From: a virus
IMG/VR virus record: IMGVR_UViG_3300020057_000004
Span: 1 to 48,294 of that record
DNA length: 48,294 bases
Reading direction: 5' to 3' (one strand)
Part shown: positions 6,151 through 48,294 of the stretch, in pieces
How positions within the stretch are numbered: the stretch's first letter is position 1
Layout: every line of letters starts with the position of its first letter
Position numbers and translations under genes: made by a program
Notes under the pieces: generated by a model
Seen by the model: the letters and a program-made list of their open reading frames with translations, nothing else
Told to the model about the DNA's origin: nothing
Databases searched by the model: none

Positions 6151-8597
6151 GGTGCCGTCCTTACGCTGTATGGTGTGCTGCCCACTATGTCGCTGACGCC
6201 TGCGCCACCTGCTGTCTGGTTAGCTGCTGCGCCTACGGGAGTCCCGGCTGCGCCACCAGTTATAGTGACCGTGCCGGAATTAGTCGCAGCGCCGCTAGAC
6301 CTGACAAAAACAATACCACCGGCACCGCCGCCACCAGCAGCGCCTTGTGTCGCTCCACCGTTACCACCGGCACCACCGACAACGCTAATAGTTTTACCGG
6401 CATTGAGTACCCAAGTGCCACCTGAGAGCATTTCAACGCCAGCACCAGAGCCGCCCCCGCCGCCACCGGAGGATGCTCCGCCACCGTTCCCGCCAGCACC
6501 ACCAGCGCCAGTAATATTTGCATCTATAAGAATGTCTGAACTGGCTTCAAGCAGGAATCCGCCACCGCCAGCACCGCCTACTCCGCCGGATGTTGTCCAA
6601 AAGGCACCAGCGCCACCAGATGAACCAGTTAAAGAATGTTCAATTCTGTAAGCTGCGCCGCCAGGAAACCCGTAGTCAGCCGCCCCAAAACTGCCAGCTT
6701 TGCCGCCAGCACCCCCAAAGCCTCCACCGGCGCCACCCGCTGGGTTGCTCGCGAGGAAGAAGAGTGCGCCAGCACCAGCACCTAGTCCTGCGCCCGAGCC
6801 TGAATGTGAATTCTGATTCACGCCAGCAATGCCACCAGTTCTTTCAGTGTTAATTGTCAGTGCGTGGCTAAGGGTATACGTCCCAAGAACATGCAATCTG
6901 CAACGTGTGCAATCGAGCGCCGCCGTCGAAGCCCAATTGCCAACGTGCCAATACTCGCCGGATAATGACCCAGATGTCGGGATTGCGCGAATTGACGCTG
7001 CCGACGTGCCGCCGAGAAGATTCGGTAGCTGTTGGTTAACCTGAGTCTGAAATCCGGGAGCCGCGCTGCCGCTCGTGTTGTTACCAAAGACGGTGTTTGC
7101 GGCTGCGTTCGTGAGCGTGTAGGTCAGCGCCGGTGTTGTCGTTGCGGTTGCCACCGAAGTCGTGAACAGCGGTGACAAGTTGCCGGACGAGAATGATGTC
7201 ACTGTACCAGAGCCGCCAGCGGCGTATTCGAGCGCGGTCGCGCCAGCATTGACGCGGAGAGTTTGTAGGGCTGTACCGATTGGTAATGTGCCAAATGCGC
7301 TAGTGCCGTTACCAAACATGATTGAGTTTGTGGCGACAGTAGCCAGCCCGCTACCACCACCTATCACGCCAACGACAGCAAATGATGGAGCGCTAGCACC
7401 AGCACTTACGAGCGGCCTGCCGGTCGCACCAGCGGCCGTTACCTTTTGGGTTGTGCCATCTGTATAAACAACACCGCCAGCAGTGTAAGGCTCAAGGTTT
7501 GCAAACATAGCGAAGTCGGCACTGGTACCACGGTCGGTTATGTAATAGCTACGAGTGCCAGCAGAGCCAGGATTGTTCCAGTTAATAGAATAGTTGGCGG
7601 CTGCTTGGTTTAGCGTGAAGCTACTTGCCGTGAATGAAGGTGTGGTTAGCGTCTTGTTCGTCAGTGTGTCGGTTGTCGCCTTGCCCACCAGGGTATCAGT
7701 GACAGCCGGAATTGTTACCGTACCAGCGCCAACCGTTACCGTGCCAGTCGAGAGCACCGGTGCCGAGCCAAACGTCTTGACGCCGTTAATAGTGCTGTTA
7801 CCCTCACTCATGACGAAGGAAGCAGCAGCGCCGGGGTCTGGAATCGTCAGTGTACGGTTCGCCGGGAAATCTGCCCAGACGATTTTGCCATCGAAGGTGG
7901 CGACTGAGTTGCGAAGCAGTAGCCCGTCAGTGGCGCTGTATGTCAATTTTGGCGATGTCAGCGTTTTATTGGTGGCTGTCTGAGCTGTGGTCAAGTCCAT
8001 CGTGATGGCGGTATTAATAGCAATCGTAGAGCTTGTGCCAACAACGTTGGTCTTTGTAATGCCGTTACCAGCCGTCAACACCATGCCGTTAGCCAATGCG
8101 CCATCAGCAGCACCGAGGATGTATTGTGCTGTGGCCGGAGCGGCAGCGCCAGTGGTGCTCCATGTGGGTAATCCTGCCGCTATGGTCAGGATTTGGTTGA
8201 CGGTGCCAATTGGCAAACGTACCCAGTCAGTACCGTTGTAATAAATCGTGTCACCAGATGCAATACTGGCAAAGTTCAAGACTGCATTGACAGCGCCTTG
8301 CTGCGTGGTGGCACCCGTGCCGCCCAGGTTGAGCGGTACGGTCGTAAGCGACAGCGCAAAGTTGCCACCGGCACCACCGTCTGTCCTGACGATAGGCGAG
8401 GTCACGGTGAGTAGCCGATAGTTCAGGTACGTACCAGCAGCAGGGGGCGTCACCAGAATTACGGTAGCATTGCCATCTGTGTTCTGGGGGGTGCTCTGCG
8501 GGAATCCACTCGGTATGGTGCCAGAACCACCCGGCTGCGCCAGTGCAGGCGTACATAACGCAAAGAAGGCGAATAACGCAAGAATGAACTTGTGCAT
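6147..8597 (-). CDS. Tail fibre/adhesin-like protein with glycine-rich tip and signal peptide
   Basis: An 816-residue protein. Residues 1-20 form a clear Sec signal peptide (MHKFILALFAFFALCTPALA). Residues ~150-470 contain fibre-type beta repeats, including NKTLTSP/NKTLTTP and INGVKTFGSAPVLS, the latter shared with the protein at 13129. From about residue 600 to 800 it is extremely Gly-rich with several GGAGG runs and short non-Gly interruptions, resembling the polyglycine-II sandwich of T-even gp38-type adhesins. A host-recognition role is likely. The signal peptide is unusual for a cytoplasmically assembled tail part. GAGG precedes ATG 8597. Confidence 0.75.
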   Translation of the reverse strand: MHKFILALFAFFALCTPALAQPGGSGTIPSGFPQSTPQNTDGNATVILVTPPAAGTYLNYRLLTVTSPIVRTDGGAGGNFALSLTTVPLNLGGTGATTQQGAVNAVLNFASIASGDTIYYNGTDWVRLPIGTVNQILTIAAGLPTWSTTGAAAPATAQYILGAADGALANGMVLTAGNGITKTNVVGTSSTIAINTAITMDLTTAQTATNKTLTSPKLTYSATDGLLLRNSVATFDGKIVWADFPANRTLTIPDPGAAASFVMSEGNSTINGVKTFGSAPVLSTGTVTVGAGTVTIPAVTDTLVGKATTDTLTNKTLTTPSFTASSFTLNQAAANYSINWNNPGSAGTRSYYITDRGTSADFAMFANLEPYTAGGVVYTDGTTQKVTAAGATGRPLVSAGASAPSFAVVGVIGGGSGLATVATNSIMFGNGTSAFGTLPIGTALQTLRVNAGATALEYAAGGSGTVTSFSSGNLSPLFTTSVATATTTPALTYTLTNAAANTVFGNNTSGSAAPGFQTQVNQQLPNLLGGTSAASIRAIPTSGSLSGEYWHVGNWASTAALDCTRCRLHVLGTYTLSHALTINTERTGGIAGVNQNSHSGSGAGLGAGAGALFFLASNPAGGAGGGFGGAGGKAGSFGAADYGFPGGAAYRIEHSLTGSSGGAGAFWTTSGGVGGAGGGGFLLEASSDILIDANITGAGGAGGNGGGASSGGGGGGSGAGVEMLSGGTWVLNAGKTISVVGGAGGNGGATQGAAGGGGAGGIVFVRSSGAATNSGTVTITGGAAGTPVGAAANQTAGGAGVSDIVGSTPYSVRTAP

Positions 8598-18946: not shown

Positions 18947-20592
18947 GATTTGGCCCCTGTCTTCCAGACCTTCTCCATCTTCTTGACAGAGAGATGCCGA
19001 ACGTTTCCGCTCTTTAGAATAAATTTGAATACTGCGCCCATGCCCACGCAATCGAAGATGTCAGCCCACGGGTGGCGGCGGTCGATGGCATCCTGCACAG
19101 TGCCATTCTTATCAACCTTCCGGCGATAGCCACCACGGAGGGCCTCGATAAATATCGGGCAATGCTTGCTGTTGATGACGAGGCATGGTCGGTTGTATTC
19201 ATCCACGCGGTTCATCAGCATTTGAATCGCTGTAATCCGCATGGGCTCACGCTTCGTAGACTTGATTTGTGACAGCCATGCGCTGTTGATGGTCATGCCC
19301 CAACTGCGTTGAATGAGCACGTAGTCAGCATCGTCCTGTGACGCGACCTGCCTGGTAGCGCCTTGAGGGTCGCCAATTGCTTGCTCAAATTCAAAGTTCT
19401 CAAACCGGCTGTTGGAGATATTCTCCTCGCATTCCATCACCTGCCCGAGATATGCTTCGTCCATAATCATTTCATGATGAACGAGCAAACGGCCGTTATC
19501 CATGTCAGCCTGAACCCACGCCCATGCGAACGTTTTACCGGGGTCACAAATGCGCAGGATAGGCAGCTCTGGGTCAATTTCCAGTTCTGGGTCACAGTGA
19601 ATATCTTCGTTGAACGACTCGAACAGGCGACCCTTCTGGGAGCTGTTGTAATCCAGCAGGTACTCTTTCGCCATAGTCTCGGCATCGTTGTTCGACTGCA
19701 TCATTTCCAGCCAAGGCGACCATGCTTGACCGTTACGAACTTCTAGTCCCTCGCATCTGTCGGGGTGTCGATACCAGTGGAATCTGATGTGCGTAACTTT
19801 CTCCGGCTTCTCGCCAGGGGAGCAGAACTCAGGGTGTACCATCTTGGCAAATTTGTTAAAGGGTCCGTCAGGAGTGCCGACAGCAATACGGACTTTGACG
19901 GTCCCTGAAAGCGAGCGCCAGGATTGTTCATCGAACTCCCACTTGGGCATCTCGTCGCAGAAAGCCGCAAGTGCCCGTCCGCCTCGTCCGAAGTTTTCGT
20001 TAGACGACTCGCCAACAATTTGCGCGCCACCTTCGCCCGGTGGTTTCGTAGAAAGCAAGCGCTCTTTGCTAAACTTTTTAGACTGAATGTCAAAGCCTGG
20101 AGGTAGAAGAAACTCAGGCTGTCGGATAATGTTGAACCGCAGTTTTTCAAACGGCGTGTCCATGTCGCCAATCTTGTCAACTTCCTCCTCCTTTCTACTA
20201 CCGATAATAAAAGAGGACCCGTGAAACTGCCAGAACCACTGGAAAACATAGAGCACCACGAACGATGCGCCCATGTCCCGAGCCTTGTCGATGACGATGT
20301 TTTCACGGAATAGGTTTTCGTTCTGCGCCCGCTGCAAAGAGTTTACAAGGTGCTCAATAGCTTCCTCTTGAAACTCCCAGGGGATGAACGGTTCTTCGAT
20401 GGACGCAGCATTCTTGCGCGGGTCGTATGCCCACGCTGTATATTGCATCCAGAATATCGGATTCTCTTTGCACTCTTCCACGAACGCTTTTAGTGTCTTC
20501 GGGTCACGAAGACACTTATTCATCATGCGTTCGCGTTCAAGCTCCCACCAGTCCGTATCGGGCTTAGGAGTTGACTTTATTATCAGTTCCAT
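18934..20592 (-). CDS. terL: Terminase large subunit
   Basis: A 552-residue DNA-packaging motor. ATPase: a terminase-style P-loop KARDMGAS (103-110) and Walker B AAFCDE (209-214). Nuclease: RNase H-like acidic residues at Asp350 (RICDPGKTF), Asp408 (IGDPQGA) and Asp511/514 (HPWADIFDC). It pumps DNA into the prohead and cuts it. It is immediately upstream of the portal gene. No obvious small subunit with a helix-turn-helix is adjacent; the 146-residue gene upstream or a more distant gene may serve. Confidence 0.95.
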   Translation of the reverse strand: MELIIKSTPKPDTDWWELERERMMNKCLRDPKTLKAFVEECKENPIFWMQYTAWAYDPRKNAASIEEPFIPWEFQEEAIEHLVNSLQRAQNENLFRENIVIDKARDMGASFVVLYVFQWFWQFHGSSFIIGSRKEEEVDKIGDMDTPFEKLRFNIIRQPEFLLPPGFDIQSKKFSKERLLSTKPPGEGGAQIVGESSNENFGRGGRALAAFCDEMPKWEFDEQSWRSLSGTVKVRIAVGTPDGPFNKFAKMVHPEFCSPGEKPEKVTHIRFHWYRHPDRCEGLEVRNGQAWSPWLEMMQSNNDAETMAKEYLLDYNSSQKGRLFESFNEDIHCDPELEIDPELPILRICDPGKTFAWAWVQADMDNGRLLVHHEMIMDEAYLGQVMECEENISNSRFENFEFEQAIGDPQGATRQVASQDDADYVLIQRSWGMTINSAWLSQIKSTKREPMRITAIQMLMNRVDEYNRPCLVINSKHCPIFIEALRGGYRRKVDKNGTVQDAIDRRHPWADIFDCVGMGAVFKFILKSGNVRHLSVKKMEKVWKTGAKSWAS

Positions 20593-25418: not shown

Positions 25419-27194
25419 TTACTTGCCTCCCGCCTTCCACTTTGAAAGCATCTCGTATTTCTTTTCTGGTGGTAGTACGTCCCAAAGTTCATTATGCTTT
25501 TCCCAAAAGGATAAGCCCATACCATCGCTGGCGAATCGCATAGCACGCTTACGGTCCTTGGTCATCTTCTCGCCTACCGCCGCCGCAATTTGTGTTTTCT
25601 TGAGAGCAGTGCTCGCATCAGCGGCGTCAAGTTTCGCCTGCCCTAACGGGGTCATCTCTCCCGGTATCGGTGGCGGTGGCGGTGACTGAAAGCCTGGCAC
25701 CGGAACGCGAGGCTGTCCGAATCTGCCCGTACTAGCCTCAAGGGCTGATTGCATATTTCGGTACGGTTTGCCATTGTGCGAGATCGTCCGCTTATGCAGC
25801 CTCTCAGAATATCCTTCGATATTCTTGATATCGCCGCTTGCGAATTTGCCCATGTGCTCACCGGTTTTCCTGTAGTGCTGGATCGCCTGTTCTTCTGTGT
25901 GGTGCTTGCCGTCGAAGATAGTAGGTATCAGCACTTCATACTTGCCGTCGTTGAAGCTCATCGAAAATTCTGTGCCGTAGCTACCATCAGGATTGTCTAC
26001 AATCTGACGCTTAGACAGATCGACGTTGCCTTTCTCTACTAGCCCCGGAAAGCTTTTCACGTCCGCATAGCCCGTCGACGTGCCAATCTTTGTTGCGGCC
26101 GGCGGATTCACCATTCCTTTAGTCCCCGGGACATTTCCGACCTGCATTGATTGCGGCGCGCCTGAACTTAACTGCTTTGCAGTCGGTGGCGGCGGCGGTG
26201 ACTGAAAGCCTGGCACCGGAACGCGAGGCTGTCCGAATCTGCCCGTACTAGCCTCAAAGGCTGATTGCATATTGTTGTACTTGATAGCGGGGTTCGCTTG
26301 CACACTCAGCACTTTAGCCTCAGCTAAGTTCATGCCAGTCGCTTGGTTGATAGCAAAACCAAGCTCCATCTCTCTCAGTTTGGCGTTATAGACTTCAAGC
26401 TGCTTGCCCGACAATGATTGACTCGTGTTCGCAATCTTGTCTTGGATATTGATGCGCTGCTGCCCTTGGTTCTCCAGGGTATCATTTCGCTCAGCCTTAA
26501 TATCAAGCCCGGCCCATAGGCGGTCATCGCTCTTAGATTTCTGCTCGTCACCAGTGATGGACTTAAATAAATCCTTCCAGTCACCACCGAGCCCTTGGTA
26601 CTTTGCTATCTCTGCGAGCAGGTCAGCATTGCCAGTTTGATGCAAACCCTCGGCAAACTTGAGAGCCTCGACTTGTCCGCTTAATTGCAATCTTTGTGCT
26701 TGAGTGTTGGCATAACGATTTCGGCTTTTTAGAGTAAGCATCCGGGTGATAAGCCCGCCATCAGCACCAACGGGTGAACCAGTATCACCACCGCCGAGAT
26801 TGGCAAGTTGCTGCATTATTGCATTACCACTCTCCTGGAGTGCCTTATGAGCAGAGCGTCCTTTGTCGTACTCGTCAAGTAGTTCATGAGTCCGTTTGTA
26901 ATCAGGCTGAGTGTCCATCAAGCCTTGTGCTTGAGTGGCAACACGGTCAGCGCCACCGAATGGATTAGGGTCCATCCGTCCCGCTTGAGCAATGCCTGGT
27001 GTTAAAGGATTCGGAAATGCTATCTGGTCGGTACGAGCAGCATTCATTAATAGTTCAATGTTCGGGTCGGCTTCAGCACCACGCGGAGCCACCGCCTGTG
27101 ACGGCTGGCTAGGGATGGGTACTTGTGAGCGCCCTATCATCATCATCTCCGATGGCGGCGGTGGTGGGACTAGCATCTGCCTGCGATTTACCAT
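25419..27194 (-). CDS. Internal virion protein with inserted mobile phage domain
   Basis: A 591-residue protein. N-terminal ~300 residues: Pro-rich start, then helical, Gln-rich sequence typical of inner-core proteins. Residues ~307-333 and ~479-505 are near-identical (MQSAxEASTGRFGQPRVPVPGFQS then poly-Pro), encoded by 80-bp direct repeats 516 bp apart. Between them is a compact domain (NPDGSYGTEFSMSFNDGKYE, then VLIPTIFDGK, EEQAIQHYRKTGEHMGKFAS) that I know as a recurring unit in phage structural proteins. The layout looks like a domain inserted by repeat-mediated recombination. It is coupled to genes on both sides. Confidence 0.75.
   Translation of the reverse strand: MVNRRQMLVPPPPPSEMMMIGRSQVPIPSQPSQAVAPRGAEADPNIELLMNAARTDQIAFPNPLTPGIAQAGRMDPNPFGGADRVATQAQGLMDTQPDYKRTHELLDEYDKGRSAHKALQESGNAIMQQLANLGGGDTGSPVGADGGLITRMLTLKSRNRYANTQAQRLQLSGQVEALKFAEGLHQTGNADLLAEIAKYQGLGGDWKDLFKSITGDEQKSKSDDRLWAGLDIKAERNDTLENQGQQRINIQDKIANTSQSLSGKQLEVYNAKLREMELGFAINQATGMNLAEAKVLSVQANPAIKYNNMQSAFEASTGRFGQPRVPVPGFQSPPPPPTAKQLSSGAPQSMQVGNVPGTKGMVNPPAATKIGTSTGYADVKSFPGLVEKGNVDLSKRQIVDNPDGSYGTEFSMSFNDGKYEVLIPTIFDGKHHTEEQAIQHYRKTGEHMGKFASGDIKNIEGYSERLHKRTISHNGKPYRNMQSALEASTGRFGQPRVPVPGFQSPPPPPIPGEMTPLGQAKLDAADASTALKKTQIAAAVGEKMTKDRKRAMRFASDGMGLSFWEKHNELWDVLPPEKKYEMLSKWKAGGK
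25678..25757. repeat. 80-bp direct repeat, downstream copy
   Basis: Matches 26194-26273 with a single difference (AGGGC versus AAGGC). Offset 516 bp, a multiple of three. It flanks the inserted domain in the 591-residue virion protein. Confidence 0.95.
26194..26273. repeat. 80-bp direct repeat, upstream copy
   Basis: Partner of 25678-25757, coding for the same Pro-rich segment on the N-terminal side of the inserted domain. Confidence 0.95.
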
Positions 27195-32683: not shown

Positions 32684-33012
32684 GACGAACCTCTTGAGCG
32701 CCGTGATGGTTTTATTGTTATCGAAGTCCACCGCGTCCAGTAGTCGCATCCCACGTCGTACAAGTAATTGAATCCATTTTTGCAAGGGACGAAGTGCCCG
32801 AATAGGCGATAGAAAAGTTGCTGCGAGCGATTGCAATCTTCGAGCGCTAGCCGTGATTCTTCGAATGTTTCCCCGTCGTGGTATCGCTGTCGAGCCTCTT
32901 TGATTTGTTTGATGAGGAAAGCAGCATCGCCGGCGCGGAGTCCGTCAGTTTGTTTAGCCACGATGTTGAGCCAAACCGGGGTGCATGTGGTGGTAGGCGG
33001 TAAGTTGTGCAT
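32680..33012 (-). CDS. Unknown 110-residue protein
   Basis: A charged helical protein (IKQIKEARQRYHDGETFEES) with a basic C-terminus (TIKPSRRSRGSS). It overlaps the upstream HTH-like gene by 59 bases and the downstream ATG by ATGA. No family recognised. Confidence 0.55.
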   Translation of the reverse strand: MHNLPPTTTCTPVWLNIVAKQTDGLRAGDAAFLIKQIKEARQRYHDGETFEESRLALEDCNRSQQLFYRLFGHFVPCKNGFNYLYDVGCDYWTRWTSITIKPSRRSRGSS

Positions 33013-33616
33013 CGAGGGTTTGCAATGTGGACATAATCGGGCGGGTCACTTCGAGTTCTTTTGCCAGGGAGCGCTGAGTGAGGTCACGTCGTTCGATTTC
33101 GTCTACAAACTGGATAGCAACCTGGTTGACGCATTCTTCGACTTGCTTCAAGGTAAAGCCAGGGAACAGCTTTGATAAAACATCCCACATGCGTTCAGCG
33201 ACAGGGAGGCCGACAGATGTTGCGCCGACAGATGTTGCGCCAACCGACCTCACGGAACGGACATCTGAGATGAGCGCATCAGGTCCAGCTCCGATTTCAT
33301 AGAAGTATTCATTGAATCTTGCGCCAGGGATTAATTGCCAGACTTTGCCGCCTTCGCCGGTGTCCATTTCAAGCAAGACGGAGCCAGTAGGAATATTCAA
33401 TACCGTAGCGCCGCCATCAGCAGGGTTCGGAATGCGATAGTCGTGTTTCACACGAACGAACCGCGAAGCACCACGTCCCCTGCATAGCTTGACATTTCTA
33501 TCGAGGGCGGTGAGGTGTGTTACGAGGGCATCGACAGAGGGGAGGATTTCGAATGGTTTGGGGTTAAAGTCCATGCAGCCGTCATTGGTGGTGCGGTCGA
33601 GCGTTTCATTTTGCAT
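32954..33616 (-). CDS. Protein with C-terminal HTH and an inserted shared peptide module
   Basis: A 220-residue protein. The N-terminal half is beta-rich and unassigned. In the middle is the segment IGAGPDALISDVRSVRSVGA followed by two further TSVGA repeats (15-bp DNA repeats); the same DNA is present in an unrelated rightward gene at 38299. The C-terminal third has an HTH-like pattern (LTQRSLAKELEVTRPIMSTL), suggesting DNA binding. ATG 33616 abuts the preceding stop. It may be a regulator of the leftward block. Confidence 0.65.
   Translation of the reverse strand: MQNETLDRTTNDGCMDFNPKPFEILPSVDALVTHLTALDRNVKLCRGRGASRFVRVKHDYRIPNPADGGATVLNIPTGSVLLEMDTGEGGKVWQLIPGARFNEYFYEIGAGPDALISDVRSVRSVGATSVGATSVGLPVAERMWDVLSKLFPGFTLKQVEECVNQVAIQFVDEIERRDLTQRSLAKELEVTRPIMSTLQTLDAQLTAYHHMHPGLAQHRG
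33233..33297. repeat. 65-bp shared coding module, minus-strand copy
   Basis: Inverted relative to 38299-38363, with 63 of 65 bases identical. Both copies are read in the same frame, giving the same 21-residue peptide except Ala/Val. This copy is followed in its reading direction by 15-bp tandem repeats encoding SVGAT. Confidence 0.95.
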
Positions 33617-33940
33617 TTAGATTTTCTCCGAAGCAGTGGGTTGGTCAGGGTCGAGGTCCGAGTCATCAGGGGTTTCCAGCACGGATACGCGTTTTTCGAG
33701 GGCATCGAGGCGATGGCCTTGGACTTCAGCCAGTTGAATCATGCTGCCGAGCAGGTTGGACAAGAAGACTTCAGAGGACGGAGGAGCCGATATTAGTTTA
33801 GGTCCGGCACAGATGGTGGGCGTCTTACCGTGAGCTGATAGTTGCCAGCCGGCATAGAGGAACAGCCCGAGCACCACCAGGACGACAGCGATACCAAGAA
33901 AGGCAAACAGTCGGAGCGTTTCGTCCCCGTAGTTCCACAT
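33617..33940 (-). CDS. Single-span inner membrane protein
   Basis: A 107-residue protein with one strong transmembrane helix at residues ~11-33 (LFAFLGIAVVLVVLGLFLYA) and an acidic, partly coiled C-terminal region (QGHRLDALEKRVSVLETPDD). The topology resembles small phage membrane proteins such as i-spanins or superinfection proteins, but it is far from the lysozyme. Function unknown. Confidence 0.65.
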   Translation of the reverse strand: MWNYGDETLRLFAFLGIAVVLVVLGLFLYAGWQLSAHGKTPTICAGPKLISAPPSSEVFLSNLLGSMIQLAEVQGHRLDALEKRVSVLETPDDSDLDPDQPTASEKI

Positions 33941-33942
33941 GG

Positions 33943-34212
33943 TTAGTATTTCCCGTTATGAGTGATTGCGGAGTCAGCATCCATGCGGGCTTCACGCAGT
34001 TTGCGCAAGGCAGCAGAGCGGTCAGGGCCGGCAGGCACATGCACAACAATAGCCAGCGCGGCACGACTCAAGGCATCACAGACAGCATCACCAGCATTGG
34101 TCTGAGCCGGGTCCCAAGGATGGTACGTGTATTGGTCATCAATGATTTCAGCAGCCACCAGCTCATCAGCATCACAAGTAGGATTCATTCGATTTATGTC
34201 AATCACAGCCAC
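33943..34212 (-). CDS. Acb2/Tad1-like cyclic-nucleotide sponge candidate
   Basis: An 89-residue protein whose C-terminal half matches the Acb2/Tad1 hairpin family pattern: YTYHP, then helix DALSRAALAIVV and the closing VPAGPDRSAALRKLREARMD followed by ADSAITHN (family: ERSxALxKLEEAxMxANAAIxxN). Characterised members bind CBASS or Thoeris signalling nucleotides and so block anti-phage defence. GTG 34212 is chosen because GGAG lies nine bases upstream and a promoter (34246-34275) starts transcription just before it. It is the first gene of the long leftward block. Family placement is from recalled patterns, not a search. Confidence 0.65.
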   Translation of the reverse strand: MAVIDINRMNPTCDADELVAAEIIDDQYTYHPWDPAQTNAGDAVCDALSRAALAIVVHVPAGPDRSAALRKLREARMDADSAITHNGKY

Positions 34213-34240
34213 AATTATTTTCTCCGCCAGGTAAGTTCGC

Positions 34241-34270
34241 TTGAAATTGTGGCAGCGCATACCGTATTCT
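34241..34270 (+). promoter_or_regulatory. Rightward sigma70-type promoter
   Basis: TTGAAA (34241-34246), 18-base spacer, TATTCT (34265-34270). The start would be near 34277, ahead of the small rightward operon. Its -35 overlaps the -10 of the leftward promoter and vice versa. Confidence 0.5.
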
Positions 34271-34275
34271 GTCAA
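34246..34275 (-). promoter_or_regulatory. Leftward sigma70-type promoter
   Basis: On the minus strand: TTGACA (34275-34270), 18-base spacer, CACAAT (34251-34246). The start of transcription would be near 34239, giving a short leader to GTG 34212. It would drive the long leftward block. It overlaps a rightward promoter. Confidence 0.55.
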
Positions 34276-34298
34276 GCATGGATATTGGAGATTGTCAA

Positions 34299-34601
34299 GT
34301 GTTTTATGTGAGTGATGCAGCAATAGAAGATGCGATATACAGCAGTCAGTTCGCAACGATGCTATGCGATATGCGACAAGCTCATATTCATAGCAGGCTT
34401 GAGGAGCATATCAGCAGAATAACAGAAGTTGTCAAGAGGCGCACAGGGTCAAATTTGTTGCATTGGCTCATCTGGATAGATTACGCTAAGGCCCGAATCC
34501 TTGCCGAAGCAGCCATTGCTTTAGAGAGTGGGAATGCTGCTTCTGGTGCCAAGCCTGATGTGTTCAATACCAAGAAACGACAATGGGAGAAAGCAAAATG
34601 A
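34299..34601 (+). CDS. Unknown helical protein, first gene of a rightward pair
   Basis: A 100-residue helical protein (YSSQFATMLCDMRQAHIHSR, ISRITEVVKRRTG) with a basic C-terminus (KKRQWEKAK). GTG 34299 has GGAG eight bases upstream and lies downstream of the predicted promoter; ATG 34278 would be nearly leaderless. The stop overlaps the next ATG (ATGA). It is divergent from the leftward block. Confidence 0.55.
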   Translation: MFYVSDAAIEDAIYSSQFATMLCDMRQAHIHSRLEEHISRITEVVKRRTGSNLLHWLIWIDYAKARILAEAAIALESGNAASGAKPDVFNTKKRQWEKAK

Positions 34602-34720
34602 GTGACAACATGATGGTGTCCTTATCAACAGGGCGGCACGTCATAACAACCGGAGAAGATGCGGAAAAGTTTGATAGTCCACAGGAAGCAATTGACGCAT
34701 ATAATGCCAGTATTCAGTGA
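34598..34720 (+). CDS. 40-residue protein
   Basis: A short ORF MSDNMMVSLSTGRHVITTGE ending NASIQ, coupled to the preceding gene by ATGA and with GGGAG upstream. It may be a small regulatory or inhibitory peptide. The segment DSPQEAIDAYNA looks helical. No family recognised. Confidence 0.5.
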   Translation: MSDNMMVSLSTGRHVITTGEDAEKFDSPQEAIDAYNASIQ

Positions 34721-34830
34721 ATACTAATGGACTTCCAAAATGATTGCAGAATTGGAGCCGACCCCAGGCACGCTTTCCTGAATCCAGTTCGGGGGTGCCC
34801 CCCCCTTCGAATCTCATGGCAAGGGTATAT

Positions 34831-34875
34831 ACTTGATAACATATAACAGTGATGTACTGTTACATGTTATCAAGT
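34831..34875. repeat. 20-bp inverted repeat with 5-bp spacer
   Basis: ACTTGATAACATATAACAGT, spacer GATGT, then ACTGTTACATGTTATCAAGT: 19 of 20 positions pair. It is AT-rich and lacks a U-run, so it is more like a protein-binding or replication site than a terminator. Confidence 0.85.
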
Positions 34876-35123
34876 GTGTAGTAGTGGTGCACATGGACCT
34901 GGTATTGGGCTAATGATACGAGTATGCTCGTAGTGGACATGCACTGGTATGTGGCACCACGCCACAGTATGTAGTACGACGTGCATCACTGCGCATATAC
35001 AACCAGTGGGGCATGATGTCATATGTTATGTACCAACATTGACAGATTGGAGAAAACGTGCCTGTGTCCACACGCTATTTTTCGAAGTATTTTGGAATGC
35101 TCATTCCAATACAGATAAATGAA

Positions 35124-35152
35124 GAACCACCGAGTAGAATACTCAGCGGTTC
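35124..35152 (-). terminator. Hairpin downstream of the clamp operon
   Basis: GAACC-ACCGAGTA, 3-base loop, TACTCAGCGGTTC forms a 13-position stem with two wobble or mismatched pairs, 33 bases after the last gene of the clamp operon. On the minus strand it is followed by TTCTTCATTTA, a weak U-rich tract. Confidence 0.45.
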
Positions 35153-35184
35153 ATCAGAGGTCGATTGCTGCCTATTAGGGGGCT

Positions 35185-35415
35185 TTATTCTCCAGTCAGG
35201 TCATCTTCTTCTACTAGCGCAATAACTGCTATGTTGTCGCCCTCGCAGCAGTCAGGTACGTGGCAGTTTGTTGTTGCGTCTATTCGTGTTTCACGACTGC
35301 TGTCAAGATATTCATCGAGGCTGAGATACCATAAACGACACAACGACAAATGAACGTCGCTTGCGTGTTCGTCAGAGAGATAGTAGCTACCGGGTTCTTC
35401 TGATAATCTTGACAT
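35185..35415 (-). CDS. Unknown 76-residue acidic protein
   Basis: An acidic protein with an N-terminal Ser/Glu-rich stretch, CHVPDCCEGD in the middle and an acidic end (ALVEEDDLTGE). TGGAG lies eight bases before ATG 35415. It is the last gene of the clamp operon. No family recognised. Confidence 0.55.
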   Translation of the reverse strand: MSRLSEEPGSYYLSDEHASDVHLSLCRLWYLSLDEYLDSSRETRIDATTNCHVPDCCEGDNIAVIALVEEDDLTGE

Positions 35416-35419
35416 TTAG

Positions 35420-35971
35420 TTATTCTCCATCTTGGTAGGTACGGTAGGTACGGTAGGTACGGTAGGGACGGTAGGTATGGTAGATACGGTCGTGCTCCTC
35501 CGCCGCATCTGCCAGCAGTGAGTACTCCGCGTCGTTGGTAGCGGCGTGGGCTAATGCCCACAGGCGCCGGTTCTCGAATTCGAGGTCGTTTACGTATTTG
35601 TCCGCTGCGCAGTCTCTTGTCAAATGTGAACTTTGCCAGCTATCATTGCATTGACAGAATGAGTCTACTCGTATCTCACCTATGTAATGTCCTCGATAAT
35701 TGACTAACTTAAGTGTGCCGCTTGTACCGAAGCTGACTATTTCGATACCCAGTCGTGACATAGCACGAGAACTCCTAGCGCTCCAGTTAAACATCAGGCC
35801 TGTAAACAGGTCTCTTGCAGCTCTTGTCAAGTAACGCGTTGTTAGTTCAGTAGAGCTGATTTTTGTTGTAAGGTGGTATTCGCCTGTGTAGTCAAAGCCG
35901 TCCTTCACGTTGCCTGTCTGTATTGCTTTAACGAACGCGTAGCTGTGTCGTTCTTCGATAATGCTTTTCAT
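35420..35971 (-). CDS. Unknown protein with Tyr-Arg-Thr repeat tail
   Basis: A 183-residue protein; the body has mixed alpha/beta character and a CQCNDSWQSS segment. The C-terminus is a run of PYRTYRTYRTY, coded by a 9-bp tandem repeat. AAGGAG precedes ATG 35971. It lies in the clamp operon. Function unknown. Confidence 0.6.
   Translation of the reverse strand: MKSIIEERHSYAFVKAIQTGNVKDGFDYTGEYHLTTKISSTELTTRYLTRAARDLFTGLMFNWSARSSRAMSRLGIEIVSFGTSGTLKLVNYRGHYIGEIRVDSFCQCNDSWQSSHLTRDCAADKYVNDLEFENRRLWALAHAATNDAEYSLLADAAEEHDRIYHTYRPYRTYRTYRTYQDGE
35434..35490. repeat. 9-bp tandem repeat
   Basis: About six imperfect copies of GTACGGTAG encode Tyr-Arg-Thr units at the end of the 183-residue protein. 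The 9-base unit keeps the frame when copy number changes. Confidence 0.9.
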
Positions 35972-35995
35972 GTTGATTACTCCTTGTATGTACTG

Positions 35996-36190
35996 TTACT
36001 CGCAGGATTCGATTGAGAAGCTCCCTTCTCGGATTTCGTCCGCTGAGGCGGCGTCGGTGCACTGGTCGAGAAGCGCTGTCAGCGCTTCTGGAATAGCCGC
36101 TTCAGCGGCTTTCCGGGTTCCGTGCTCTCCGCATTTTATGTCGCCCTGCTTGTCGGAACTAGTCCAGAATAGTCTGTACGTATTTTTCAT
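35996..36190 (-). CDS. Unknown 64-residue protein
   Basis: A small protein (MKNTYRLFWTSSDKQGDIKC) with a helical middle and acidic end. Its opening, a strand with YRLFW then a helix with KAAEAAI, loosely resembles the N-terminal domain of the gene at 40820 (KKFWMVW...ARDEAE). It is the first gene after the second clamp-type promoter. Confidence 0.55.
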   Translation of the reverse strand: MKNTYRLFWTSSDKQGDIKCGEHGTRKAAEAAIPEALTALLDQCTDAASADEIREGSFSIESCE

Positions 36191-36226
36191 TTTTTGCCGT
36201 TGCTCCGAAATTGATTTGACTCTATC

Positions 36227-36255
36227 AATGTAGCACGGATAGTATTCCCAGTCAA
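36227..36255 (-). promoter_or_regulatory. Sigma70-type promoter, second copy
   Basis: On the minus strand: TTGACT (36255-36250), 17-base spacer, extended TGC-TACATT (-10 at 36232-36227). The surrounding ~70 bases repeat the promoter region of the clamp gene (37469-37497) with few changes. It would drive the three genes at 36190-35185. Confidence 0.7.
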
Positions 36256-36293
36256 CCCTAACGACTACTAATTTACTCTTTGTATGTGAAACC

Positions 36294-36316
36294 CAGGCGC
36301 TCCTGATGAGCGCCTG
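36294..36316 (-). terminator. Hairpin after the sliding clamp gene
   Basis: A perfect 9-bp GC-rich stem, CAGGCGCTC / GAGCGCCTG with a 5-base loop, 12 bases after the clamp stop and before the second promoter. On the minus strand it is followed by GGTTTC, a short U-run; it may insulate the clamp from the next genes. Confidence 0.55.
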
Positions 36317-36328
36317 TGTAGGGTTAGG

Positions 36329-37435
36329 TTAGGCTGCTTTGGCTTTGGCTTTTTCAATTGGCATTAGCAAGTGTCGGTAATCGCCGCCTGGGTTAAAGAT
36401 AAGCGGCTTAAGTGGGCCGTTGTATTGCACGCAAACGTATGCATCAACGAAAGATTTGAGCGCTTCAACTAGAAAGTCGTAGTTGCAGCTCCAACCAACT
36501 TGTTGTTCTTTTAAGTCGTCGGATAGATGCATATTGATGATAGCTTCATGGTCCTCCATTGATATCTTGTTTCCAGTCGCATCAACATCGACAAGATTGG
36601 TTTGCTTCTTGAGAAACGGCTTCCACTTAGCTAGTGCGGTCAAAGTTTCAATCCTATTGAAGCTAATCGTGCTACCGAGTGATGTGACCGGAAACAGCTC
36701 TTGATAACGAGGATATGCGCTGTCAATCAAGCGTGTGATTACAGTCCACTCAGTGGCGCTGAAGGACATTGTTTTCTTGTCTTCAGATTGAATCATCGTA
36801 ACCGAACGATTCTCTTTTGCAGTCAGTTTCACAAGTGGTTGAATCACTTTAGATAGAACCCGTGCATTCACGATTGCGCTGAGCGTAGAGACGCCGGTGC
36901 CGGCGAATGGAACATTGTTGACGCAAGATAGACGACAGCCGTCTGATGAAACAACAGTTGAACCGTCAAAGCTCACTCCGTCAAGTATCGATGAGTCATA
37001 TGTTGCGGCGGCCCAGGCTGTTTGATTGATAACGGAATCGAGCTGCTTTCCGCTGATAGTCACATACTTCGCATCATTGTAGTCAATAGTAGGCGTCCTG
37101 GGGTAGTCACCCGGGGCCCCGCGCAGGTCGATGCGCTGCCCGTCGACCTGCGCGAGCAGTTCTGACAAGCTATTGATGACTACAAGCTCATCTTTAGATG
37201 AAGTGAGTATTGCTAGCAGTTGCTTGCTGTCGACTGCTAGGGGACGGTAGTTGCCGGGGCAATTGCCCGTGCAACTACCGTCCAGTTCAACCCGTATCCA
37301 CGTATCAAGGTCAGTCCCTAGAACGCTATCATGCGCTACTACGACGCACCGCATAAGCGGCATTTTTGCTTTGTTGTCCAATGCTTTGCTGACTGCTTTA
37401 ACGGCATTAGTTAGTTGTTTACGATTAAAATTCAT
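36329..37435 (-). CDS. dnaN: Sliding clamp (DNA polymerase III beta subunit-like)
   Basis: A 368-residue protein, the length of bacterial DnaN. Recognisable family points: N-terminal KQLTNAVKAVSKAL, SSDGCRLSCV (bacterial TDGHRLA), the LIDSAYPRYQELFP strand (family IDGxFPDY..ViP), NYDFLVEALKSF and the C-terminal strand pair PLIFNPGGDYRHLLMPI, matching the end that forms the partner-binding pocket. It would dimerise around DNA and hold polymerase and other partners. It is unusual in a phage of this size with no DNA polymerase gene; it may recruit or divert host Pol III. It has its own promoter (37469-37497) and trailing hairpin. Confidence 0.88.
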   Translation of the reverse strand: MNFNRKQLTNAVKAVSKALDNKAKMPLMRCVVVAHDSVLGTDLDTWIRVELDGSCTGNCPGNYRPLAVDSKQLLAILTSSKDELVVINSLSELLAQVDGQRIDLRGAPGDYPRTPTIDYNDAKYVTISGKQLDSVINQTAWAAATYDSSILDGVSFDGSTVVSSDGCRLSCVNNVPFAGTGVSTLSAIVNARVLSKVIQPLVKLTAKENRSVTMIQSEDKKTMSFSATEWTVITRLIDSAYPRYQELFPVTSLGSTISFNRIETLTALAKWKPFLKKQTNLVDVDATGNKISMEDHEAIINMHLSDDLKEQQVGWSCNYDFLVEALKSFVDAYVCVQYNGPLKPLIFNPGGDYRHLLMPIEKAKAKAA

Positions 37436-37468
37436 TTGCCATTACTCCGAAACTGATTTGACTCTATC

Positions 37469-37497
37469 AATGTAGCACAGATAGTATTCCGGGTCAA
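37469..37497 (-). promoter_or_regulatory. Sigma70-type promoter of the clamp gene
   Basis: On the minus strand: TTGACC (37497-37492), 17-base spacer, extended TGC-TACATT (-10 at 37474-37469). Start of transcription near 37461, about 26 bases before ATG 37435. Near-duplicate of the promoter at 36227. Confidence 0.7.
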
Positions 37498-37557
37498 CTT
37501 TAATGACTACTAATAAAAGTATTCACACGGTAAAATGCGCATATAGAAGATACGTAT

Positions 37558-37609
37558 CAAGTTGTCATGCTCCTGGCATACCAAGTTGTCATACATACCA
37601 AGTTGTCAT
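37558..37609. repeat. Three direct repeats of an 11-mer
   Basis: CAAGTTGTCAT occurs at 37558-37568, 37582-37592 and 37599-37609; the first and third are followed by GCTCCTGGC. Start-to-start spacing is 24 and 17 bases. These look like iterons or operator sites. Confidence 0.85.
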
Positions 37610-37646
37610 GCTCCTGGCTGCTTTCTGGGTCCTGGATAGGCGTAGA

Positions 37647-37693
37647 GGGGTGCTGGCTCGCTCCGAAGGAAAAGCGAGACAGACTAGCACCCC
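37647..37693. other. Large bulged hairpin
   Basis: GGGGTGCT-G-GCTCGCT pairs with AGCGAG-ACAGACT-AGCACCCC around a purine-rich loop: two stems of 8 and 6-7 base pairs separated by a bulge. No U-run follows on either strand. It could be a structured RNA or an origin element. Confidence 0.6.
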
Positions 37694-37788
37694 ATCCATA
37701 GGACTTACGACATAAATTATGGGCAAATCCTAAATTTGAAACAATTCATATTTCCTCCGAGATTGTACCACTAACCATCTTGAGACAA

Positions 37789-37805
37789 ATATATCAATGA
37801 TATAT
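37789..37805. promoter_or_regulatory. 17-base palindrome, operator candidate
   Basis: ATATATCA-A-TGATATAT is a perfect 8+1+8 palindrome in AT-rich DNA upstream of the rightward operon, the size of a dimeric repressor site. Confidence 0.5.
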
Positions 37806-37996
37806 ACAACAAAAGACTTGCATTTCAAAAAAAAACCACTAACCTATCATTGTGATTCCCCACCAGGAACAAGGGTTTTTTTCAGGTGTGCCGAGTTGGT
37901 TTTTTCCACGCTATCGCTAAAAAACCCGGCACCAGTAAAACGTACCCTGAACTGGATGACAAACACACTAATTGCAAGGCGTATATCTTGTACTAC

Positions 37997-38026
37997 TTGA
38001 CAACCTAAGATGGAGGTGGATACTTT
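37997..38026 (+). promoter_or_regulatory. Possible rightward promoter
   Basis: TTGACA (37997-38002), 18-base spacer, TACTTT (38021-38026). Transcription would start near 38033, inside the 72-residue ORF at 38027, so either this promoter or that ORF is likely false; the promoter would then serve the gene at 38226. Confidence 0.35.
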
Positions 38027-38245
38027 GTGAATACTTGGCGTAATAATGGTGGAATTTCGGGCTGGGATTACCTTTCGAGGTTATCTAAAGAACGGGTAAT
38101 CGGTATTCGATATGAATATAGCCAATTGTCCGTCTTGAAAACCCGCACTACTTCTCAGAATTACAGGCTGCGTGCTTTGAAACTGTTGGTTATGCGACTC
38201 GACAGTATAAATCGGAGAAACAATAATGGAAACTGCTGCAACTAA
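38027..38245 (+). CDS. Unknown 72-residue basic protein
   Basis: A basic protein (MNTWRNNGGISGWDYLSRLS, then many Arg/Lys/Asn) starting at GTG 38027 with GGAGG ten bases upstream. It overlaps the next gene by 20 bases. Composition is plausible, but the overlap with a promoter-like sequence leaves doubt. Confidence 0.4.
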   Translation: MNTWRNNGGISGWDYLSRLSKERVIGIRYEYSQLSVLKTRTTSQNYRLRALKLLVMRLDSINRRNNNGNCCN

Positions 38246-38618
38246 ACAACCGCTGGAAATGTCTAAGGCTGCCATCAGTGACGCGGTTATACGGAATCAA
38301 ATCGGAGCTGGACCTGATGTGCTCATCTCAGATGTCCGCTCCGTGAGGTCGGTTGGCGCAACAATGCTTGAGCTTCTTGAAGATTGCTATTGGGGTGAAG
38401 CTGAGGCATTAGCTCTGGCTTGCAATAAGCACTGGACTAATATCAAAGAACGTAAAACGTTCTGGATGGATGTCGCCCTCTACATCACTAACAATTCAGC
38501 GGCTCCTGTTAATGACGACGACGATGCTGTGTCCAACGGCGACAAACTCCTCGCCCTGATAACAAAAATCTGGGCCGACAATCAATATGAGGCTAAGCAA
38601 AATGGACTGGTTTTTTGA
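38226..38618 (+). CDS. Unknown protein carrying the shared peptide module
   Basis: A 130-residue protein. Residues ~25-46 are IGAGPDVLISDVRSVRSVGA plus T, the module also in the leftward HTH protein at 32954, encoded by 65 near-identical bases. The rest is helical (MLELLEDCYWGEAEALALAC, KERKTFWMDVALYI) with an Asp-rich stretch. GGAG lies eight bases before ATG 38226. Function unknown. Confidence 0.65.
   Translation: METAATKQPLEMSKAAISDAVIRNQIGAGPDVLISDVRSVRSVGATMLELLEDCYWGEAEALALACNKHWTNIKERKTFWMDVALYITNNSAAPVNDDDDAVSNGDKLLALITKIWADNQYEAKQNGLVF
38299..38363. repeat. 65-bp shared coding module, plus-strand copy
   Basis: Inverted copy of 33233-33297; two differences, one silent (CGT/CGC) and one Ala-to-Val. 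Confidence 0.95.
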
Positions 38619-40819: not shown

Positions 40820-41839
40820 TTACCCGTTGTACGTCTTGTTCTTTTTTGTCAAGAAAAGAAATCTGCTGCCAGGTGTTTCCATCTCAATCAGTATCTGTAC
40901 TACATCTTCAGAGAAATCAGACATAAATTTGTCAAAATCAGTGGTAGATCTGACAGCGTAGGCAGCAGCGGTAGCAGCGTAGGCAGCAGCGGTAGCAGCG
41001 TAGGTAGCAGCGGAGGCAGCGTAGGCAGCAGCGTTGGCAGTGTAGGTAGCAGCGGAGGCAGCGTAGGCAGCAGCGTTGGCAGCGGAGGCAGCAGCGTTGG
41101 CAGCGGAGGCAGCAGCGTCGGCTTTTCTTGCTGATTCTTCTGTCGGGTTTTTCTCGCAAAGACCAGCGGCTTCCAGCAGCGCTGTCTTGTGCGGCTCAGA
41201 AGATAAGCTGGCAGCTGCTCTTAGAGCTTTTACTAATACCGTACTGATAGTAAGCTGTACCAGCTTTTCAACGAACAACTTTTCGTTAAGCGTGTTTTTC
41301 GTGCCAAGTTGAGCGATAGCTAATCGGCGCATACCCGCTGCCCGTGCAGCGTTGCTGGTCCACGATTTATCATTAAGACTGATCTTGAACGACCTCAAAA
41401 CAGGTGAGACGCAGCTAGGTTCGTCACTAAACGGCTCGCCTAACGCGTAAGTAACGGCAGCTTCGACGCACATTTCTCCAGGAATTGGCTTTCCTACACC
41501 TGAACATAGCCCAGCGTCGACTACGCTAAGTACTTTGCTGCAAATTGTTTCTGTAATTTCCATTTTTCGTCCTTCCTTTGTACTCGTGTAGACATCACCT
41601 GCCGTGCAGGCTTGTTCTTTCACGCTAGGCAAGCAAGTATGCGTCACCCTGAGTTCTTGCGGCGGTGGTGGCACAGCAGCCGTGCATGAAATTGCTTCCA
41701 CTACGTAAGTGTTCATACCGGGATGCCGTTGCGCTATGCGCTCAGCCTCATCTCTTGCCGACTCGGGCGTATCATGCTTTGAGCGCGAACGGGCACCGCC
41801 TTCGCGCCATACCATCCAAAATTTCTTGATTTCTTGCAT
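40820..41839 (-). CDS. Fused accessory protein with alanine-rich repeats
   Basis: A 339-residue frame. Residues 1-50 are a small domain (IKKFWMVWREGG...NTYVVEAI); residues ~70-90 (CTAGDVYTST) duplicate the end of the neighbouring 66-residue protein. From residue 93, MEITETICSK begins a second unit: a conserved-looking helical domain (GLCSGVGKPIPGEMCVEAAV, SWTSNAARAAGMRRLAIAQL), an Ala-rich heptad-like repeat (SAANAAAYAASAATY) and a final FDKFMSDFSEDVVQILIEM. AAGGACG lies eight bases before Met93, so a separate 247-residue product is likely. The second unit resembles a widespread uncharacterised family in environmental phages and bacteria. Confidence 0.65.
   Translation of the reverse strand: MQEIKKFWMVWREGGARSRSKHDTPESARDEAERIAQRHPGMNTYVVEAISCTAAVPPPPQELRVTHTCLPSVKEQACTAGDVYTSTKEGRKMEITETICSKVLSVVDAGLCSGVGKPIPGEMCVEAAVTYALGEPFSDEPSCVSPVLRSFKISLNDKSWTSNAARAAGMRRLAIAQLGTKNTLNEKLFVEKLVQLTISTVLVKALRAAASLSSEPHKTALLEAAGLCEKNPTEESARKADAAASAANAAASAANAAAYAASAATYTANAAAYAASAATYAATAAAYAATAAAYAVRSTTDFDKFMSDFSEDVVQILIEMETPGSRFLFLTKKNKTYNG
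40957..41120. repeat. Alanine-coding tandem repeats
   Basis: Imperfect tandem repeats of 21 bp (core GCAGCGTAGGCAGCAGCG) encode the Ala-rich helix in the fused protein at 40820. Confidence 0.85.
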
Positions 41840-41852
41840 TACGTTCTCCGTT

Positions 41853-42053
41853 TTATACTTTAACCAAACACGCTAACTCAAACTCATCATCGAATCGTTC
41901 AAATGTACTCGTGTAGACATCACCTGTCGTGCAGGCTTGGTATGTCACGCTTGGCACCCAGTCGTTGCTGCCAGGCAATTGCATCTTGCCGTGCGCTACG
42001 AGCTGATAATACTCGTTCTCCTTGTATCTATAGACATGAACCTGGTCTTTCAT
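41853..42053 (-). CDS. Unknown 66-residue protein
   Basis: MKDQVHVYRYKENEYYQLVA then WVPSVTYQACTTGDVYTSTF and an acidic end; the aromatic strand pattern resembles small DUF1653-like phage domains. A 34-base segment coding CTTGDVYTST is repeated in the upstream-positioned gene at 40820. GGAG precedes the ATG. Confidence 0.65.
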   Translation of the reverse strand: MKDQVHVYRYKENEYYQLVAHGKMQLPGSNDWVPSVTYQACTTGDVYTSTFERFDDEFELACLVKV

Positions 42054-47584: not shown

Positions 47585-48294
47585 TCAAAGCGCTCTAATG
47601 GCGTGAAATAATTCTGCCGCCAATGGCTCTGAATGTAAAATTCGTCCCGCTCGGCCCCATCACGAGCCTTGTCAATCTTCAGCATGATAGGCGCTAACCC
47701 GTCATGCTTGAGCAGCTTCTTGATTCGCTTGGATACCTTCAACATTTCTTTGTCATTCTTGAAACTCGGCGGGTCTTTGTCCGGCCGCCTGTTGTAGAAG
47801 TCGTGGTCGTTGATTTCGTAGAAGTCCGTTATCTCTTCGTCCGTCATGACACTGAGAGTAATAACGCAATCAGAACGCATCACTTTTCGATAGCTGCCCT
47901 TGACGTTCGCAGCGCTGCCCCGCGCATAACTGTCACCCTTGCCGGATTCACAAATGCAGAATACAACCGACTGGTCATTCATGTTGTCAGCAATCCATCG
48001 GACCTGCTCAATCAGCCAATCATCAGGATTCTTTTCTTCCACCGGCGGGACCATCAATTCCAAGAAGTCGATAACAAGGATGATATTTTCGCATTCTGAC
48101 TCATCCATCAGGTGGCGCATTTCGCGGTTAATGCTGTGCCTGGTGGCGTGTGGGAAGTTGAATCGGTCGAGTACCCGGAAGCGGTTCCCGAGCTTTTCCA
48201 ATGCCGTGAATCCCTTTTCGACAGCAAGGCGCTCCTGTGGTGTCCAGCCTTCCGGTGTGCTCCCACTGCGAGCCACTCGAATCGGTATCCGAGC
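47581..48294 (-). CDS. DnaB-like replicative helicase, C-terminal part (starts at 874 on the circle)
   Basis: Continuation of the gene at 1-874. This part holds the Walker B-type strand CENIILVIDFLELM (Asp325 of the whole protein), a motif VFCICESGKGD ~30 residues on that resembles the DnaB H3 region, and a basic RVSKRIKKLLK-type segment. The last 127 bases of the window duplicate its sequence at 1-127. Stop at 47581 overlaps the next gene's ATG. Confidence 0.8.
   Translation of the reverse strand, partial: ARIPIRVARSGSTPEGWTPQERLAVEKGFTALEKLGNRFRVLDRFNFPHATRHSINREMRHLMDESECENIILVIDFLELMVPPVEEKNPDDWLIEQVRWIADNMNDQSVVFCICESGKGDSYARGSAANVKGSYRKVMRSDCVITLSVMTDEEITDFYEINDHDFYNRRPDKDPPSFKNDKEMLKVSKRIKKLLKHDGLAPIMLKIDKARDGAERDEFYIQSHWRQNYFTPLERFE
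48168..48294. repeat. Terminal overlap, copy 2 (circular assembly)
   Basis: Identical to bases 1-127; see that entry. Removing one copy gives a 48,167-base circle with one uninterrupted helicase gene. Confidence 0.9.

Follow-up and report, generated by a model that had tools for sequence, protein, structure and literature searches.

The window analyzed here is the whole of IMG/VR virus record IMGVR_UViG_3300020057_000004 (48,294 bases), which belongs to an uncultured tailed phage and encodes a terminase, a portal-like protein (phrog_332), a DnaN-like clamp, SSB, an SNF2-type helicase, RusA, an endolysin, and a DNA methyltransferase. Coding sequence covers 39.3 kb on the minus strand versus 5.8 kb on the plus strand in a greedy ORF census, and the rightward gene cluster spans only about 1.5 kb. 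Two genes on opposite strands, whose products of 220 and 130 residues we refer to as P1 and P2, share a short stretch of coding sequence in inverted orientation (Table 1), and the main genes inside the interval between the two copies (33.3-38.3 kb), DnaN and its neighbors, share the minus strand with most of the genome. Close relatives of the phage were not found by alignments of TerL and the helicase or by tblastn with DnaN: the best matches reached 28-37%, about 33%, and about 25%, respectively, and were all rejected as relatives for being too distant. The record begins and ends with the same repeat of exactly 127 bp (1-127 and 48168-48294). The identical length in 2 of 6 other phage records examined, the distantly related G002 and G029, suggests that assembly of a circular contig with a k-mer overlap probably produced this repeat, which would then not be a biological terminal repeat.

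Table 1. Coordinates of the two genes, the tract that they share, and associated features.
Feature	Position in window	Strand	Description
Host gene 1 (P1)	32954..33616	minus	220 aa: uncharacterized N-terminal domain, module/linker, C-terminal HTH
HTH segment of P1	33014..33124	minus	residues 165-201; profile matches
15-bp tandem repeat	33209..33241	minus	SVGAT units; 2.2 copies, 100%; overlaps last 9 nt of copy 1
Module copy 1	33233..33300	minus	68 nt; inside 220-aa gene, residues 107-128 EIGAGPDALISDVRSVRSVGAT
Hairpin core of copy 1	33253..33293	minus	one C to T change turns a G-C pair into G-T/U and weakens the stem
Host gene 2 (P2)	38226..38618	plus	130 aa; helical prediction at low confidence; no family
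Module copy 2	38296..38363	plus	68 nt, 65 identical to copy 1; inside 130-aa gene, residues 25-46 QIGAGPDVLISDVRSVRSVGAT
Hairpin core of copy 2	38303..38343	plus	imperfect, 41 nt; CGGAGC-t-GGAC-CTGA ... TCAG-at-GTCC-GCTCCG
ATG directly after copy 2	38364..38366	plus	read from the sequence; possible former start

Both genes are preceded by a good ribosome-binding site (TTCGGAGAAAATCTAA-ATG for P1 and AAATCGGAGAAACAATA-ATG for P2). An earlier, sequence-only reading of this DNA had labeled P1 an HTH-type protein, which is supported for its C-terminal part by a match to phrog_2339 (E 4.6e-6): residues 165-201 align to family positions 25-61, with the family's first residue falling near P1 residue 141, just past the SVGAT linker. 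Pfam HTH_37 scored 23.7 bits on P1, under its curated cut-off of 27. The sole locus returned for the 220-aa protein (L003) proved to be a chance match of FNEYFYEI in an AAA-type ATPase. For P2, the same reading's description as a small helical protein finds support in a single low-confidence model. The single-sequence structure models of the two proteins are weak (mean pLDDT 45.8 and 56.9), and solved structures offered no useful match.

A 68-nt tract read in one frame by two unrelated genes

The sequence-only reading had reported a core of 65 nt (33233-33297 and 38299-38363) with 63 of 65 positions identical. Recounting confirmed these figures and extended the inverted repeat to 68 nt, of which 65 are identical (96%), at a distance of about 5 kb. 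Across the window, 38 16-mers are common to both strands, compared with 0-5 in each of 20 order-2 simulated genomes. Both copies are, as had been claimed, read in one shared frame, so that each protein contains E/Q-IGAGPD(A/V)LISDVRSVRSVGAT. The copies differ in three codons, of which one change is silent (CGT/CGC) and two alter the residue (GAA/CAA, E/Q; GCG/GTG, A/V). Among the six frames of the 68-mer, the frame in use is the single one that is open in both copies, while one antisense frame is free of stops in copy 1 but not in copy 2. Since stop codons in at least one of the genes exclude any other frame, a copy that did not disrupt its host gene would be seen in the used frame anyway, and the shared frame needs no selected peptide function.

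Outside the module, the proteins are unrelated, again in agreement with the earlier reading: flank alignments at both the protein and the DNA level all scored within or below the range of shuffled sequences, and we therefore rejected a common origin for P1 and P2. In both proteins, the module lies outside the predicted structured core and ahead of a helical domain. The weak single-sequence models place pLDDT below 50 over P1 residues 97-154 and P2 residues 1-38, a low-confidence region that includes the whole module in P1 and the larger part of it in P2. The edges of the module show no microhomology clear enough to account for its endpoints.

The two copies end differently. In P1 only, the tail of the module is continued by a tandem array, running as VRS-VRS-VGATS-VGATS-VG into a repetitive linker, and the 15-bp SVGAT repeats that had been noticed at this copy are real. 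Copy 2, in P2, ends mid-repeat, directly before an ATG and the predicted helical part. Judged from its position in the sequence, this ATG is possibly the former start codon of P2; it now has no Shine-Dalgarno sequence at a usable distance.

The module also has some dyad symmetry, with 41 of its 68 nt lying within an imperfect hairpin. When folded as DNA, the 46-nt core of copy 2 gave a z-score of -3.57, for a core that was picked after seeing the fold, and the core of copy 1 gave -1.39. As RNA, the module has one stem of about 14 pairs and a second of 3-4 pairs; the folds of the full 68 nt were unremarkable (z -0.66 for copy 2 and +0.61 for copy 1), and the minimum-energy RNA structure of copy 1 differs from that of copy 2.

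Other palindromes occur in the same region. The DnaN-like gene contains two strong ones (37242-37283 and 37120-37154, with arms of 21 nt and 17 nt and a spacer of 0-1 nt), and the first lies where the protein has a 5-residue insertion when compared with four distant homologues. Their sequence is unrelated to the module, and the 2 palindromes above threshold in the window, where 0.4 are expected per genome, amount to a weak excess only; they offer a hint that inverted copying occurs in this region. A large hairpin with 25-nt arms and a 5-nt loop (34826-34880) separates plus- and minus-strand genes.

Searches for further copies and comparable duplications

No third copy was detected in the window by blastn, an ungapped scan, or a covariance model of the two copies, and this model found no further copy in 1.1 Mb of other phage DNA. 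The sequence-only reading had proposed searching for the module DNA and peptide in phage and host genomes, and no credible match emerged from IMG/VR, GTDB genomes, GenBank phages, or plasmids. Specifically, an exact 62-mer is absent from IMG/VR, where a degenerate pattern of the peptide core, which recovers both window copies, had 0 matches in 2.9 million viral contigs and a pattern of the module tail had 0 matches in viral contigs. A longer peptide core had 0 matches in 84,980 GTDB genomes, and tblastn of a 31-residue peptide gave no credible match in GenBank phages. With blastn, the module DNA retrieved nothing in plasmids and only 19-nt words in phages; these exact matches, in Vibrio phages (E=2), were dismissed as chance. 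Together, the searches speak to absence from other lineages and not from the closest kin of the phage. The earlier idea of a mobile or recombination-spread module thus survives in part: copying within this genome fits the high DNA identity and the unrelated flanks, whereas a mobile or widely spread module is unsupported since there are two copies only and no match in the collections searched.

As a background, we collected repeat pairs of at least 50 bp and at least 88% identity from 118 other phage loci (1.9 Mb), which yielded 33 direct but only 2 inverted pairs. One of the inverted pairs (locus L095 of record G001, 6295-6420 and 19478-19601; 126 bp, 97%) encodes an in-frame C-terminal segment of about 41 residues that is common to two otherwise unrelated ORFs on opposite strands, and because of this pair the kind of event seen here is not unique. 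Short in-genome duplications are common in these phages, and in-frame inverted sharing is uncommon.

Several other repeats were noted. Within the window, a second in-frame module (PSVxxQACTxGDVYTST; 41570-41631 and 41895-41956, 62 nt at 85%) is shared in direct orientation by two neighboring minus-strand genes of 339 aa and 66 aa, and a 21-bp tandem array of 7.8 copies (40954-41117) encodes an alanine-rich repeat in the 339-aa protein. A 98-nt repeat (95%; 25667-25764 and 26183-26280) lies in frame inside one 591-aa gene. An 80-bp direct repeat (89%; 36193-36272 and 37435-37514) upstream of two minus-strand genes carries promoter-like hexamers and looks like a duplicated control region. In another phage contig, about 5 dispersed copies of a 57-92-bp unit occupy 2.6 kb (L020, 134-2695).

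Origin of the shared tract

High DNA identity, unrelated flanks, and confinement to one genome in the searches made are features of an in-genome duplication, and we consider it fairly probable that the module arose by a recent, single inverted duplication of about 68 bp within this phage, probably from the 220-aa into the 130-aa gene. It has the look of a recent copy that was made by accident and is tolerated in flexible protein linkers, rather than of a mobile element or a switch. Because the module tail runs on into a repetitive linker in P1 while the copy in P2 stops mid-repeat before an ATG, the 220-aa gene is the likely donor and the 130-aa gene the likely recipient, a polarity that may run the other way if expansion of the 15-bp array followed the insertion. 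As no orthologue without the module was found, we infer the insertion into P2 (or P1) rather than see it, and plain accident is a thin account given how rare inverted pairs are in the background.

A different event with the same outcome would be staggered breakage followed by inversion of the 5-kb interval, in which filled-in ends leave an inverted duplicate at both ends and one of the two genes would be a re-joined chimera. The geometry of the repeat is exactly what the staggered-break model predicts (model described in PMC7584159), the module sits at a two-part junction in both genes with the ATG directly after copy 2, and the swapped fusions are in frame: inversion of the interval is predicted to give two clean, full-length chimeras of 138 and 212 aa. 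However, the main genes of the interval share the majority strand of the genome, for which reason the present gene order looks ancestral, and it would take luck to end up with good in-frame genes at both ends. We regard such an inversion footprint as unlikely.

The sequence-only reading had compared the module with the palindromic elements of Rickettsia genes. A small palindromic element of this kind, mobile, in frame, and encountered while still at low copy number, would amount to selfish DNA that spreads within the genes of a virus. Likeness exists in the 41-nt imperfect hairpin core, a point in favor of the comparison that the earlier reading had not known, and in the placement of the module in frame within two unrelated genes; the DnaN gene close by has further strong palindromes in its coding sequence. 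The comparison fails on abundance and size: Rickettsia palindromic elements are about 150 bp long and fall into ten families, and R. conorii has 44 of them (PMC10969869), whereas the module is 68 bp long and present twice, and its hairpin is shorter than the unit. The RNA z-scores of the copies are ordinary. Moreover, its peptide core is unmatched in IMG/VR and GTDB genomes, blastn gave no credible match in phages or plasmids, and the DnaN palindromes are unrelated to it in sequence. PARCELs (PMC2996958) resemble the module as short peptide-coding units with dyad symmetry and intragenomic shuffling, but they form tandem arrays of 25-residue units across taxa, whereas here each gene has one unit that is unmatched elsewhere. 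We therefore find the palindromic-element interpretation quite unlikely.

Selection or gene conversion could also have kept the two copies alike if they were a shared functional peptide or nucleic-acid signal, such as a binding motif common to both proteins, an operator for the HTH protein, or a put-like antitermination RNA. Each copy lies on the sense strand of a transcript that runs outward, and a near-palindrome would fit a dimeric HTH protein. The length of 68 nt and the location of copy 2, about 265 nt past a TTGACA-16-GATACT site, resemble putR of phage HK022, which is about 70 nt long and lies about 270 nt after the start (PMC9378689), and HK022 likewise has two elements of about 70 nt that resemble each other and lie in transcripts that diverge. 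Yet put functions as RNA with two long stem-loops (PMC9378689), while the module forms one modest stem within translated codons and its RNA stability is unremarkable. In addition, an Rfam search of the window gave no match, two of the three differences alter the amino acid, and the rightward gene cluster is short. A selected signal of any of these kinds strikes us as distinctly improbable.

Grouping both copies of the module with the two DnaN palindromes as a class of small in-frame palindromic coding inserts of the phage's own, a viral counterpart of the Rickettsia elements that shuffles linkers, seems very unlikely. Inversion between the repeats, which the sequence-only reading had raised, is physically possible, but an inversion switch, homologous or site-specific, that exchanges the N- and C-terminal halves of P1 and P2 is highly improbable: inverted sites do flank a segment, arms of 68 bp fall close to the minimum length for homologous recombination (about 50-150 nt according to PMC8262927), and both exchanged products would be in frame and full-length, but no invertase, integrase, or transposase was found among the 47 predicted proteins, a subset of the ORFs, that were scanned with at least one family library, DnaN and its neighbors would run against the rest of the genome, the assembly is clean with a single orientation, and the halves of P1 and P2 bear no sign of being alternatives. 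A template/variable repeat pair of a diversity-generating retroelement was rejected, as the copies do not differ at adenines and no reverse transcriptase was seen among the scanned proteins. Taken together, the palindromic-element, put-like RNA, shared-function, and switch interpretations each fail on, or lack, a defining feature.

For the single inverted duplication that we favor, one strand would have been copied once onto the other gene during phage replication, by analogy through template switching or short-homology break repair. Phage T4 joins ends at homologies of 3-13 nt (PMC8262927), and both this minihomology repair and template switching in yeast genes (PMC8604942) resemble the present case in their short tracts, their restriction to one genome, their sharp edges, and in making mobility machinery unnecessary. 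They differ in that the T4 cases are deletions and the yeast events are local and span a few codons, whereas here a 68-nt tract would have been copied inverted across 5 kb. The copy may have persisted because the segment that received it, ahead of a helical domain, has little structure, and because it is read in the one frame that would not bring a stop codon into either gene. If this simple reading is right, phage replication can copy a short stretch of one gene into another and thereby supply it with a linker in a single event; stop codons, and not any function of the peptide, would then dictate the reading frame.
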